A stretch of DNA of 25,982 nt from a virus. Positions 11,098-22,574 of the stretch are shown one piece after another (within the stretch, counting starts at the first letter, position 1; each line of letters opens with the position of its first letter). The notes under the pieces are model-generated. The model made no database searches. It was not told where the DNA came from and saw nothing but the letters and a program-made list of their open reading frames with translations. The DNA is taken from IMG/VR virus record IMGVR_UViG_3300042469_000054, positions 1-25,982 of that record. One strand, written 5' to 3'. The translations under genes and the position numbers were made by a program.

Positions 11098-11471
11098 TAG
11101 TTTTCGTGAATTTTTTTTAATTTATTTATAATTTCAGCTAAACAAGTTGCGCAACTGGTAGGCTCTTGGTTCTGTTTGAAAGTGCGATTATAAATTTTTA
11201 ATATCTCTCTTTGCTCTGATGGTTTAACGCTGTTACGGTTTACTGCAAACCATTCTGTAAGATAGTTGTATTCGGTTTCTGTAAGGCATTCAGGTTTAAT
11301 GTAAGGAAACAAATGGTTTAGTTTTTGTTTACGTTCCTCGCATCCGCAGTCCTCGCCCATTAAGAATTTAGCTACTTTATCTATCCCTGTTGCTTGTAAT
11401 ACTTTCTCTACGGTATCTCCTAATCCTTGTGATTGTGGTTTTCTTGTTCTTGGTTTTTTACTTGTTGTCAT
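11088..11471 (-). CDS. Conserved phage protein with CxC/CxxC motifs
   Basis: 127 aa. A basic N-terminus (MTTSKKPRTRKPQSQGLGDT) leads to a helix with GIDKVAKFLMGEDCGCEERK (30-49), where CGC follows a Gly-Glu-Asp. Near the end is SCATCLAEIINKLKK with CATC. Together CxC and CxxC could form a four-Cys zinc site. I recall similar proteins close to terminase genes in Flavobacteriia phages, with no assigned function. Its start lies within the last codons of the sigma-factor gene (14-base overlap), so it is coexpressed with it. Possible roles are a late-transcription partner of the sigma factor or a packaging accessory; both are speculative. Confidence 0.65.
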   Translation of the reverse strand: MTTSKKPRTRKPQSQGLGDTVEKVLQATGIDKVAKFLMGEDCGCEERKQKLNHLFPYIKPECLTETEYNYLTEWFAVNRNSVKPSEQREILKIYNRTFKQNQEPTSCATCLAEIINKLKKIHENYLN

Positions 11472-11925
11472 ATTTCTTTAATTTATTTTTACACTTCTTT
11501 AATGTTACGAATATACTTTTCTCGCTAATGTTTGTTTCTTTTGCTAATTTACGAATAGACATACCAGAATCAATGTATAAATTAAATAGTATCTCATCGT
11601 AATAATGCCAGGATGCTATCTCGTTTTCTATTCTATTCTCAAACTCTATGTATGAATCGTGCGAAATATCAAAGTTATCATCTAATCTTACAACCTCGAA
11701 ACGTGATTTTAGTTGCACGTAGTTAAGAAATAAGTTACGCAGTACGAAGTATATGTAGCCTTTATTTAGTGTTCCACGCTTTACAATCTTATCGTATGTG
11801 GTATACTTGTTTATCCGTAGGTACATTTCTTGTACGATATCTTCAGTATAGAACTCCTCGCCAAATGAACGAACTACATCTACCCATTCGTTATGATGCT
11901 TTGAAACCTCATCTAATAACTTCAT
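11458..11925 (-). CDS. Phage sigma-70/ECF-like sigma factor
   Basis: 155 aa. Region 2 covers about 5-77, with FYTEDIVQEMYLRINKY (25-41) matching the region 2 core (E-D-x-x-Q-E) and a later helix GYIYFVLRNLFLNYVQLKSR (56-75). Region 4 lies at about 104-152, with a helix-turn-helix SGMSIRKLAKETNISEKSIF (120-139). This is the short two-domain layout of ECF-type sigma factors. Its position, just upstream of the terminase and virion genes, suggests it redirects host RNA polymerase to late promoters. It opens the region read into the packaging genes and has repeated sites in its upstream DNA (11972-12029). No anti-sigma factor is seen. Confidence 0.75.
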   Translation of the reverse strand: MKLLDEVSKHHNEWVDVVRSFGEEFYTEDIVQEMYLRINKYTTYDKIVKRGTLNKGYIYFVLRNLFLNYVQLKSRFEVVRLDDNFDISHDSYIEFENRIENEIASWHYYDEILFNLYIDSGMSIRKLAKETNISEKSIFVTLKKCKNKLKKYDNK

Positions 11926-13720: not shown

Positions 13721-14671
13721 TTAAAATGGTAAATTATCAAATGAATTATTAGGTGCTATTGCTATTTGCGTATGCGTTTCTTTCAATGGCTTTGCTATGT
13801 TTCCATCTTCGTTGAATTTTCCAGTCTTTACGTTGTACATCAAACTCGTTACTCCACGAACTCCAATAACTTCTGGTTTTGCTTTGTTAACTTTTATCTC
13901 TGTTACTACACTATCAAAATCTCGGTGTACAATTATAATGCTTTTACCATTATTCCCCCATTCAGAACCACCTTTTAATTCGTGCATATCTGGTATTTGT
14001 GCTTTTCCATTAATCTTAACTGGACTTTTAGGATGTATGATTGTGTGAAAATGCAATTTACTTGCTTCGCATAAATCATTACCAAAACTTAACACATCTT
14101 CTAAATATTGGTCGTATCTCATTCCGCTTGTTACTTCGTGCTTCATATAATTCCAACTATCAATTACTACTGAGAACAAATCTAATTCTTTTTTATGATT
14201 AGCACCAAATTCCCATAGTTCTTTTGGTGTTATTGCTTTACTTGCTTTGCCTTGTGGCTTGTAAATTATAAACTTATCCAAAACTTTAGGTAGTAAACGT
14301 GTTATTTCTAATTCAGTAAGTCTATTTTCAATCTTAACCTTTTCTCCTTGTGCATTGTAGTAGAACTCTTTAAACTGCTTACCACTCATTTTGTGCATTA
14401 TCTTAGCGATTACTTCGGATGTGCTTCCAGCATCTGGCATATGTATTAAGTGTTTATGTCCGTACCATTCTGAAGTATTAACTAAACATTCAAGTAGTAG
14501 TTCTGTTTTACCACTTCCAGGATAACCAGTCCAATCTGTTCTACTTCCTTCCATTATTGAGTAATGCTTTGCTAAGTTTGGAAACCCTAAATAAAAAGTC
14601 TTTCCGCCACCGCTTTTGTAATGCTCAAATATAGAATGTTCTATTTCTTGGTATTTAAAAATGTTATCCAT
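13721..14671 (-). CDS. DnaB-type replicative helicase (ATPase domain)
   Basis: 316 aa, smaller than full DnaB (about 450-470), lacking the N-terminal primase-binding domain. A RecA-fold core is visible: Walker A GYPGSGKT (49-56), Walker B-like FSVVIDSWNY (about 170-179), and a later HELKGGSEWGNNGKSIIIVH segment that matches the DnaB motif 4 region (RGSxxI/GG...W). It should unwind DNA at phage forks. The C-terminus is SFDNLPF, close to the SSB acidic tip (D-D-L/I-P-F) of bacteria. It follows the winged-helix initiator with an 8-base overlap, which suggests the initiator loads it directly. The short length is seen in some phage helicases. Confidence 0.82.
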   Translation of the reverse strand: MDNIFKYQEIEHSIFEHYKSGGGKTFYLGFPNLAKHYSIMEGSRTDWTGYPGSGKTELLLECLVNTSEWYGHKHLIHMPDAGSTSEVIAKIMHKMSGKQFKEFYYNAQGEKVKIENRLTELEITRLLPKVLDKFIIYKPQGKASKAITPKELWEFGANHKKELDLFSVVIDSWNYMKHEVTSGMRYDQYLEDVLSFGNDLCEASKLHFHTIIHPKSPVKINGKAQIPDMHELKGGSEWGNNGKSIIIVHRDFDSVVTEIKVNKAKPEVIGVRGVTSLMYNVKTGKFNEDGNIAKPLKETHTQIAIAPNNSFDNLPF

Positions 14672-15359
14672 ATTTCTGTATTTCTGTTAGTCTAAATTCT
14701 TTTAAATCTTTAGCATACTGATTTATTTCTTCTTGAGTCATTCCTTCGCAATTACTAAACACAAATTCTTTTTTTTGTTGTTTAGGTTGTTCTGTATTGC
14801 TTTTCTCCCAAGTACGTACACAAGCCTTCCAATCTTTCATTTTGTTTCTACCAACCATCCAACCTTTTGATTCGTAAAAGTCTATAAAAGTTTCCGCATT
14901 AACAAAGTTTTTTCTTTCAATACAATAATCTAAAACCTCAATAGCCGAAGGCGGTGTAAATGTATTATTTTCATTCTTTTCTTTCTTTACATTCTTGTTA
15001 GTTGTTACTTGTTTGTTATTTGTTTGTTGCTCGTCTGTTATTTGGTTTGTTACTATCTGATATTTTTTGTAGTTAACTACCTGAATAATAGTACCTTTCG
15101 AGCTTGTTTTGATTGTTATTTCGTTTGTTGATTTTAGCTTACTTAATGAAGTTCTTATTTGTTGAATTGTCAAACCAACCTCTTTGCTTAGTAAATCCAA
15201 ACCAGTTAAAGTCTGACCAACTTCAATCAATTTTCCTCTGTAATTTCTTTCTTTGTGATTAGCTTTTAAAAGTAAATACATAAATAACCTAAACGTATTC
15301 TTATCGTCAAACCATTCCCACTCTAAAATTTGTCTGTGTAATTTTATCCAGCCACTCAT
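14664..15359 (-). CDS. Replication initiation protein, winged-helix (O/DnaD-like)
   Basis: 231 aa. The N-terminal region begins MSGWIKLHRQILEWEWFDDK, a start I recall from phage replication initiators of Bacteroidota, and continues with a winged helix: LLLKANHKERNYRGKLIEVG, then GLDLLSKEVGLTIQQIRTSL (recognition helix), then a beta wing TSSKGTIIQVVNYKK. A Thr/Asn/Gln-rich linker (about 103-137) leads to a C-terminal helical domain with FIDFYESKGWMVGRNKMKDW and a tail NCEGMTQEEINQYAKDLKEF. This bipartite plan, DNA-binding head plus helicase-binding tail, is shared by lambda O- and DnaD-type proteins. The origin could lie within its gene, notably in the A/T-rich linker-coding part, or in the structured gap upstream. 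Confidence 0.72.
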   Translation of the reverse strand: MSGWIKLHRQILEWEWFDDKNTFRLFMYLLLKANHKERNYRGKLIEVGQTLTGLDLLSKEVGLTIQQIRTSLSKLKSTNEITIKTSSKGTIIQVVNYKKYQIVTNQITDEQQTNNKQVTTNKNVKKEKNENNTFTPPSAIEVLDYCIERKNFVNAETFIDFYESKGWMVGRNKMKDWKACVRTWEKSNTEQPKQQKKEFVFSNCEGMTQEEINQYAKDLKEFRLTEIQKYG

Positions 15360-15544
15360 TACTTCATATCTTTTTCAATGTGATGCAATACTCCTTTTAA
15401 TTGAAACGCTTGTTTTTTAGTTAAATAATAACAAGTTGTTATTCCAGTATCGCAATCTACAATTGATAATTGAATTAAATTTTGTTTATAAACGCATTTG
15501 ATTTCAAGTTTTGTTTCATATAAATCTGTTAAATAATAATTCAT
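15359..15544 (-). CDS. Small protein before the replication initiator
   Basis: 61 aa, starting MNYYLTDLYETKLEIKCVYK and ending GVLHHIEKDMK. It looks alpha/beta with a Cys-rich middle (DCDTGITTCYYL). The stop and the start of the initiator overlap (TAATG), so the two are coupled. It is the first gene behind the structured leader at 15568-15646. No family is recognised; it may simply be a small helper protein of the replication block. Confidence 0.65.
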   Translation of the reverse strand: MNYYLTDLYETKLEIKCVYKQNLIQLSIVDCDTGITTCYYLTKKQAFQLKGVLHHIEKDMK

Positions 15545-15567: not shown

Positions 15568-15615
15568 AAAAAAGCTCCTATCGTCAAGGTTGTGCCGACC
15601 TATCGGATAAGAGCT
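15568..15615 (-). terminator. Intrinsic terminator in the leader of the replication block
   Basis: Outer stem AGCTC/GAGCT (15573-15577 with 15611-15615), then a C-A mismatch, then TATC with GATA, an internal loop and an inner 4-bp stem, followed by TTTTTT on the minus strand. It would stop transcription about 25 bases before the start codon at 15544 unless overcome, so it can gate the replication genes. Its apical loop is complementary to the loop of the preceding hairpin. Confidence 0.65.
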
Positions 15616-15646
15616 AAACTAAATTTTTTCACGTTCCGGCACGAAC
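15568..15646 (-). ncRNA. Structured leader/small RNA with two hairpins and a kissing loop
   Basis: On the minus strand three parts are visible. Hairpin 1 (15646-15633) is GTTC-GTGCCG-GAAC with a 6-base loop. An A/T-rich linker (15632-15616) follows. Hairpin 2 (15615-15573) has an outer stem of 5 bp plus 4 bp with one mismatch and an inner 4-bp stem AGGT/ACCT; its loop CGGCACA is followed by a six-T run (15573-15568). All six loop bases of hairpin 1 pair with the loop of hairpin 2. Located between a TAnnTTTG box and the replication genes, it is either a transcription attenuator or a small RNA of about 78 bases. No known RNA family is recognised. Confidence 0.6.
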
Positions 15647-15650
15647 AATG

Positions 15651-15687
15651 CAAATATACAATATACTAACTACTTTTCATCTTCAAA
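15651..15687 (-). promoter_or_regulatory. Candidate promoter for the structured leader
   Basis: TATATTTG on the minus strand at 15658-15651 is a full -7 box match; the -33 element is poor (TTTG at 15687-15684 is 25 bases away; only ATG lies at 19). If used, transcription would begin near 15645, at the base of hairpin 1. It overlaps the last codons of the gene at 15670. Confidence 0.45.
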
Positions 15688-15942
15688 CAATTGAATCTTT
15701 TGAACAATTTTATCAATTTCATTAACAATGTCAACCCATCGTTGAGCTGAATCTTCTGGTAGTTGTTCGCTTACATTCTCAACTATCTTTTCAACCCACG
15801 CGTAAAAGTTTTCACATCGTTGTTTAAATTCACGTTTGTATATTACTTCGTGAGATAGTTCATCTAATGTGTGAAGTATTGACTGCATCTGTAAAGTTAA
15901 CGCTAAGGTCAAATCTAAGTCTTTTCGTTGTTTAGTGTTCAT
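15670..15942 (-). CDS. Small helical protein, function unknown
   Basis: 90 aa, all helical by composition: MNTKQRKDLDLTLALTLQMQ, then HTLDELSHEVIYKREFKQRC and a Glu/Asp-rich end (KIVQKIQLFEDEK). It has one Cys and no recognisable domain. The next gene upstream (15955) ends 12 bases before its start, with an A-rich leader. It lies in a run of five small unknown genes between the SSB-like gene and the leader RNA. The strongly acidic helical end could be a protein-binding or inhibitor feature, as in many small phage proteins that target host enzymes, but there is no direct evidence. Confidence 0.65.
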   Translation of the reverse strand: MNTKQRKDLDLTLALTLQMQSILHTLDELSHEVIYKREFKQRCENFYAWVEKIVENVSEQLPEDSAQRWVDIVNEIDKIVQKIQLFEDEK

Positions 15943-22089: not shown

Positions 22090-22108
22090 AAATAAAATTT
22101 AAGTAAAT

Positions 22109-22130
22109 AAAAAAACCACTATTAAAGTGG
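22109..22130 (-). terminator. Intrinsic terminator after the endolysin gene
   Basis: CCACT-TTAAT-AGTGG (22130-22116) followed by seven T on the minus strand (22115-22109). The hairpin includes the endolysin stop codon (22124-22122). It marks the end of the late/lysis transcription unit. Confidence 0.8.
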
Positions 22131-22574
22131 CTTGTAAGGTATGTATTGCGTTTTACCACCGATTATAATTGCTCTTAACGCTTGTTTTCTGTTGTTACCT
22201 TTACGATACGATATGTGAAACCAATTAGCGTGTGTATCGTTTCCAAATTCATAGATAGCTTGGTCAAATTCTACGTTTTTAAGAATCCAATCAAACAATT
22301 TTCTATTTGTTAATTCCAAATCAAACGCTTCGCCTTTTGTATGTTGGCTACCAGACGCACCGCCTATCAACTTATTAAGTTGCTCGCATCTAAATCCACT
22401 ACTTATTTTAATCGGTACGTTTAAATGCTTTCTAAGTGGCTCAAATACATTCTCGCATAGTTGCATAGCTTTGTCGATTGCTATTAAACCCATTGAATTA
22501 TTAATTCCTTTTTTAATTGCAGTTGGAGAATAGCAAAATTCTTCCATTGTAACGTGTTTACTTAAAGTTTTCAT
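22122..22574 (-). CDS. Endolysin, M15 family peptidase
   Basis: 150 aa, the size of small Peptidase_M15 enzymes. It opens MKTLSKHVTMEEFCYSPTAI, then SSGFRCEQLNKLIGGASGSQ with the metal-binding SQHTKGEAFD (76-85: His78, Asp85) and WFHIS (118-122, His120), the S-x-H-x-x-G-x-A-x-D...W-x-H pattern. It cleaves peptide cross-links of cell-wall murein to free progeny. There is no signal peptide, so it depends on the holin candidates just upstream. It overlaps the spanin candidate as ATGA. Confidence 0.9.
   Translation of the reverse strand: MKTLSKHVTMEEFCYSPTAIKKGINNSMGLIAIDKAMQLCENVFEPLRKHLNVPIKISSGFRCEQLNKLIGGASGSQHTKGEAFDLELTNRKLFDWILKNVEFDQAIYEFGNDTHANWFHISYRKGNNRKQALRAIIIGGKTQYIPYKPL

Follow-up and report, generated by a model that had tools for sequence, protein, structure and literature searches.

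The minus strand of the analysed virus DNA (IMG/VR record IMGVR_UViG_3300042469_000054, positions 1 to 25,982; this whole stretch of 25,982 nucleotides is referred to as the window) carries two hairpins ahead of a DnaD-like helicase-loader operon, whose loops are complementary to each other and covary across related phages. With a probability of about 0.65 we read this element, from its sequence and that of its relatives, as a member of an unnamed phage leader RNA family. It would represent an attenuator before the replication genes, with loop 2 as the regulatory loop and loop 1 as its built-in partner. The findings point to an unnamed RNA switch controlling virus replication.

Anatomy of the element

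The element comprises ~90 bases and reads on the minus strand TATATTTG-CATT-GTTC(GTGCCG)GAAC-GTGAAAAAATTTAGTTT-AGCTCTTATC-CGAT-AGGT(CGGCACA)ACCT-TGAC-GATAGGAGCT-TTTTT, i.e. promoter box, hairpin 1, A/T linker and terminator hairpin 2, with the loader operon downstream. Its parts and the adjacent genes are:

15670..15942, minus strand: 90-aa ORF on the upstream side, through which close relatives were gathered (no family match)
15651..15658, minus strand: Bacteroidetes-type TAnnTTTG promoter box, TATATTTG (sequence)
15633..15646, minus strand: hairpin 1, stem P1 GTTC/GAAC, loop 1 GTGCCG at 15642-15637 (sequence, folding; P1 covaries in relatives)
15616..15632, minus strand: A/T-rich linker GTGAAAAAATTTAGTTT (sequence; A/T linker kept in relatives)
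15573..15615, minus strand: hairpin 2, the terminator hairpin (sequence, folding; P2 and P3 covary in relatives)
15615-15606/15582-15573, minus strand: outer stem P2 of hairpin 2, AGCTCTTATC/GATAGGAGCT, 10 bp including one G-U
Between P2 and P3, minus strand: internal loop CGAT/TGAC of hairpin 2
15601-15598/15590-15587, minus strand: inner stem P3 of hairpin 2, AGGT/ACCT
15597-15591, minus strand: loop 2, CGGCACA
15568..15572, minus strand: U-tract of the intrinsic terminator (putative attenuator; sequence)
15591..15642, minus strand: kissing helix, GTGCCG 15642-15637 with CGGCAC 15597-15592 (compensation in L091/L092, covariation, 30 distinct pairs)
15359..15544, minus strand: first gene past the terminator, 61-aa ORF, family unknown
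14664..15359, minus strand: the gene conserved downstream, a DnaD-like helicase loader for replication initiation (phrog_2514, E 1.2e-28)

The two minus-strand hairpins with complementary loops that had been predicted from the sequence are present, and plain folding recovers exactly both of them. Loop 1 is, over its entire six bases, the reverse complement of a six-base part of the 7-nt loop 2, and the isolated 6-bp loop-loop duplex has a computed energy of -9.3 kcal/mol. With its loop 1 of 6 nt, the window element represents a short variant. Some details of the original prediction required correction. The TAnnTTTG box indeed flanks hairpin 1, at a spacing of four bases and not five. The announced run of six T after hairpin 2 exists (15573-15568), but its first T is the last base of the stem. 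The terminator lies shortly ahead of the first gene as described, but the first ATG (15544), 23 bases past the T run, opens the 61-aa ORF and the helicase loader comes next. At the sequence level the arrangement is that of an intrinsic terminator, namely a GC-rich stem followed by a U-tract with the downstream genes behind it.

Elsewhere in the window, at positions 11458-11925, a protein of 155 aa is encoded that resembles sigma factors (phrog_1740, UPF0122/YlxM helix-turn-helix) and may serve the phage as one.

Chance expectation and known RNA families

The folding energy of the element is only mildly below that of shuffled sequences (z about -1.7 to -1.9) and is thus insufficient on its own for the claim. 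A descriptor scan for a terminator hairpin and an upstream hairpin, with loops complementary over at least 6 nt, identified exactly one site in the window compared with 0.03 per shuffled window, and none of 100 shuffled windows contained a descriptor site with a promoter box. This agrees with the assumption that such GC-rich complementary loops are unexpected by chance. An ordinary terminator beside a chance hairpin might be suspected, given that terminators are common in phage DNA and that the fold energy is only mildly unusual, but the rarity of such sites in shuffled windows and the 30 distinct matching loop pairs speak against it; this explanation is already refuted by the covariation documented below, and its probability is negligible. 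A second terminator of the window (22093-22133, minus strand), located after the endolysin gene, ends in TTTTTTATTTACTTAA like the tail of the element, and the descriptor scan found no kissing partner for it.

Comparison with Rfam 15 (4227 families including c4, RF01695) retrieved nothing above the gathering threshold over the element, neither in the window nor in 22 relatives, and the best sub-threshold match had an E of 0.44, in agreement with the earlier statement that no named RNA family has this form. Searches of the open-access literature found no published description, and BLASTN of the window's element against named phages returned chance matches only; the cultured members were instead reached via the loader and small-gene neighbours.

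Compensatory changes and covariation

Compensatory changes in related phages, the touchstone named beforehand, are present. The nearest diverged relatives, L091 and L092, exhibit an exchange of C to A in loop 1 and of G to T in loop 2, which results in the pair GTGCAG/CTGCAC and keeps the pairing at 6/6. Between the window and L091 the single loop exchange of C to A is the only difference in hairpin 1, and loop 2 compensates for it with G to T. In IMG/VR, 31 relatives of the upstream 90-aa gene were found, and the same arrangement with other letters is found wherever the contig continues. The loop pairs behind these relatives comprise GTGCAG/CTGCAC, GGTCTCAA/TTGAGACC, AGTCTCAA/TTGAGACT, GCTTCAAC/GTTGAAGC, CTCTCAC/GTGAGAG, TCCGAC/GTCGGA, GCGTAGGA/TCCTACGC and ACGGTCAA/TTGACCGT. 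Altogether, 51 distinct terminator-type (T-type) elements harbor 30 different loop pairs, all of them complementary. Relatives of the DnaD-like loader extend the picture: of their 80 loci, 37 have a descriptor site ahead of this gene, with some doubtful cases among them (e.g. L047); in L021 and L034 the element is present by eye and was missed by the scan.

MAFFT failed to align the structure across the most diverse set, and a more canonical set was used for the alignment. Among 19 variants, seven of the nine pairs of the kissing helix are changed on both sides and 85% of the cells are paired, a strong loop-loop covariation across related phages. For the whole structure, changes on both sides were found in 22 of 28 pairs, and the 104 double-change cells (30 in shuffles) were reached by none of 500 shuffles. 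The covariation score of the 19 variants is 0.60 compared with 0.19 in shuffles, and the covariation is lost when the partner is slid by one to three columns. The kissing-loop leader family proposed here is defined by a pair of hairpins whose loops are complementary and covary across relatives, and the element shows both traits. The letters vary between viruses while the match is always kept, which shows on comparative grounds that the loop-loop contact matters.

Within the stems G-U outnumbers A-C by 32 to 5, thus indicating that the RNA of this strand is the selected form. This bias on the transcribed strand, together with a promoter and a U-tract exactly at the expected RNA ends, argues against an element that acts as DNA, for instance a replication origin or a recombination site whose inverted repeats would be structured in single-stranded DNA. 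The location at replication genes and the frequent exchange between phages would suit such an element, which we nevertheless regard as very improbable. Conservation in the relatives is not confined to the pairs: a CATTATA-like segment recurs at the 3' side of loop 1, the linker has kept TTATT, and the internal loop has kept TGAA/GGA. Their A/T linker is mostly AAGGnATTATTnA, and several T/A positions are nearly invariant. This conservation suggests a defined three-dimensional fold beyond bare pairing.

Promoter, terminator and genomic position

Of the 56 scanned elements, 49 have a strict TAnnTTTG box no more than about 5 nt away from hairpin 1. All 51 T-type elements exhibit a U-tract of TTTTT or longer, by construction of the scan. 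The distance from the start of the U-tract to the first ATG has a median of 25 nt in these 51 elements (range 7-51), and a promoter box is lacking in between; the replication genes would hence be reached only by read-through, which corresponds to an attenuator arrangement. The predicted position ahead of replication genes is conserved in the relatives, where the gene adjoining the element or following soon after is usually the DnaD-like loader. One exception is the phage mumin6-1, with a different small gene after the element and then a helicase. Opposite-strand TAnnTTTG promoters, the only promoter type considered here, show no excess (7 of 56 downstream stretches versus 13% by chance). An anti-terminator pairing of the linker with the 5' strand of the terminator was inspected by eye and rejected as inconsistent across variants.

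R-type relatives

A clade with the loader start M(x)NQ(Q/H)GWIK and the separate contig L284 carry a different form of the element, designated R-type. Its hairpin 2 has a stem without a full U-tract and the loader begins shortly after. A third copy of the loop-1 letters is located directly before the loader ATG (L213/L219, L214, L220, L230/L235, L284), the copies being ACAACC, ACACGACCG, GGGCAGT, ATACGCAACCA and GAGACACTATT, each immediately followed by ATG. Between loop 2 and the start region, 6-8 Watson-Crick pairs, or 8-11 pairs with G-U, can be formed, a level reached by at most 1.3% of the start regions in the window. Judged by its letters, the R-type loop 2 can therefore pair with either loop 1 or the ribosome-binding region. 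One layout would thus serve two outputs, termination and translation, as is the case with riboswitches. A search for a third loop-1 copy at the start codons of the T-type phage genomes revealed none beyond swapped-loop controls, so that the R-type logic is not simply transferable to the T-type.

Distribution and exchange

The element was found in uncultivated phages, in the cultured Flavobacterium phages morran9-1, lillamy9-1, mumin6-1, snusmum6-1, elemoA_7-9A and FCV-3, and in Cellulophaga phage phi18:3 (loop pair CTTCTGAC/GTCAGAAG). In the cultured phages, too, it is located ahead of replication genes. Muminvirus has been grouped with lytic phages (PMC7077304). A covariance model, which represents the commonest form only and was applied with strict filters, gave one weak and short match in 395 Bacteroidota genomes, indicating that the element resides mainly in free phages. 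Many distant phages with a related loader have no recognisable element, which counts against the leader function proposed below.

Some genomes harbor a second copy with a loop pair that differs from the first. One example is mumin6-1, with GTCGTCG/CGACGAC before the annotated endonuclease gp034 (L363:11678-11755), which is also present in snusmum6-1. Another example is an uncultivated phage (L045:8791-8880) with GTTGCGG/CCGCAAC and TATTAG replacing the promoter box. Longer variants were observed in L049:5863-5965, L138:3867-3970 and L182:2695-2800, with the loop pairs CTCGCAC/GTGCGAG, CTCCCAC/GTGGGAG and TAAGCGG/CCGCTTA; they originate from a phage contig and from genome contigs binned as Ruminococcus and Clostridia, and the kissing-loop layout may accordingly extend beyond Flavobacteria. 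A member of an Rfam family, the DUF805b RNA (RF02914, 52 bits), is located before the ParB-like gene gp040 of the cultured phage morran9-1 (L356:357-391).

The similarity of the elements does not follow that of their neighbours. Upstream genes that are 93-96% identical stand beside elements with only 55-61% identity in the most different pairs (shuffled sequence 48%), the genes of L098 and L116 are 76% identical and their elements 96%, and L101 and L107 have the element in common and a different next gene. From this decoupling it follows that the element is swapped as a unit. Moomin phages from the related hosts LMO6 and LMO9 have three different loop pairs.

The diversity of these Moomin loop pairs, and the hypervariability of loops between close relatives with each element still self-complementary, would be compatible with kissing in trans between identical RNAs from several phage genomes, be it for dosage control, same-type exclusion or a phi29-like oligomer. 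Intramolecular pairing is the simpler reading and the element is located at replication and not at packaging genes, which makes a function in trans of this kind quite improbable. A related idea, which we consider doubtful at best, is that the loop pair represents a self/non-self code and that trans pairing of RNAs from one phage genome with the nascent leader of a second, same-type genome throttles the replication genes of the latter. Trans pairing between same-type RNAs, if real, would explain the loop diversity; under such a code, phages described as lytic would have plasmid-like RNA compatibility groups, with loops diversified by selection and swapped by recombination.

Proposed function

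In the cis-acting leader that we prefer, hairpin 1 and terminator hairpin 2 would be joined by the loop-loop helix into one compact RNA with its own promoter, and transcription from the adjacent promoter as well as from upstream would have to pass the terminator to reach the replication genes. Hairpin 1 would fold first as RNA polymerase leaves the promoter; loop 2 would emerge before the 3' half of the terminator and could be captured by loop 1, and this contact would then set the fate of hairpin 2. In the T-type, including the window, the output would be termination or read-through. In the R-type, loop 2 would instead pair with the translation start of the loader, and loop 1, as a copy, might act as decoy or release, the loop-loop contact thus freeing or blocking the start region. 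The comparative data establish structure, covariation, strand and position of the element, its attenuator arrangement and the third copy of the R-type. From these we infer that kissing alters termination or translation; the effect may go in either direction, and co-transcriptional timing, a protein or trans pairing with an RNA of the same specificity are candidates for what shifts the balance. In the T-type, the kissing helix seems able to coexist with a complete terminator, so that termination might proceed unaltered by kissing. Terminated transcripts should in addition yield a stable RNA of about 80-95 nt.

Such a product could alternatively be a stand-alone small RNA of about 85-95 nt acting in trans on host or phage messages, with the kissing helix as a fold or as a self-lock on the active loop. 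The promoter adjoining hairpin 1 and the complete terminator of the T-type agree with this, as does the exchange as a unit independent of the neighbours (L098/L116; L101/L107). Even so it appears unlikely, since loop 2 matches phage start regions no better than swapped loops do, the element constantly stands 7-51 nt ahead of the next gene and mostly within the replication module, and in the R-type the target is found in cis. Of the two options initially left open, a cis leader and a free small RNA, the former is favoured by the spacing and by the R-type elements.

The element represents a structured RNA family that is absent from Rfam, widespread in flavobacterial phages and distinguished by very clear loop-loop covariation. 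Phages with few other genes in common thus share a layer of RNA above their replication genes, and its output takes two forms, a terminator or a translation start. Since cultured phages and hosts carry the element, the mechanism is testable at once. For Bacteroidetes and for synthetic biology, the 30 loop pairs found in nature offer a set of candidate orthogonal RNA attenuators.

Comparison with known systems

The pRNA of phi29-type phages likewise has two loops that are complementary and covary from phage to phage; these loops pair between molecules and serve packaging. The present element is located at replication genes and ends in a terminator, and its location argues against a packaging ring. 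The c4 antisense RNA of P1/P7 (RF01695) lies on the same strand and the same transcript as its target, which includes the ribosome-binding region. The element has no Rfam match to c4 and differs in layout by its internal loop-loop helix.

P4 immunity relies on the CI RNA, a processed RNA that works in trans and brings about termination. It pairs both upstream, with seqA, and downstream, with seqC, and terminates the transcription of replication genes (PMC4825925). The likeness consists in a phage leader RNA ahead of replication genes, here with the DnaD-like loader next or near, in the premature termination that is the output of P4, and, for the R-type relatives, in an arm (loop 2) that matches an upstream copy (loop 1) as well as a downstream one (the start region) of its own transcript. 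The differences are that two hairpins of one ~90-nt RNA with an intrinsic terminator are involved here, that the downstream copy was found in the R-type relatives and not in the T-type, window included, that the element resides in Bacteroidetes phages, some of them described as lytic (Muminvirus, PMC7077304), and that a sequence or Rfam link is lacking.

The repC system of pT181 is a transcription attenuator in plasmid replication control. Recognition begins there with a loop-loop contact, and the partner, a separate RNA, shows full complementarity to the attenuator's 5' part (PMC4878617). An attenuator arrangement at replication control and a loop-loop contact are common to both systems, but here both loops belong to one RNA, and a separate opposite-strand antisense RNA found no sign in the TAnnTTTG promoters, which are not enriched on that strand (7/56 versus 13% by chance). 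Membership in P4 CI or pT181 can be claimed for neither: a sequence or Rfam relation is lacking, nothing points to a partner encoded on the opposite strand, and T-type elements have no downstream copy. In regulatory logic, the P4 immunity system and the pT181 attenuator appear to be the nearest counterparts of the kissing-loop leader.
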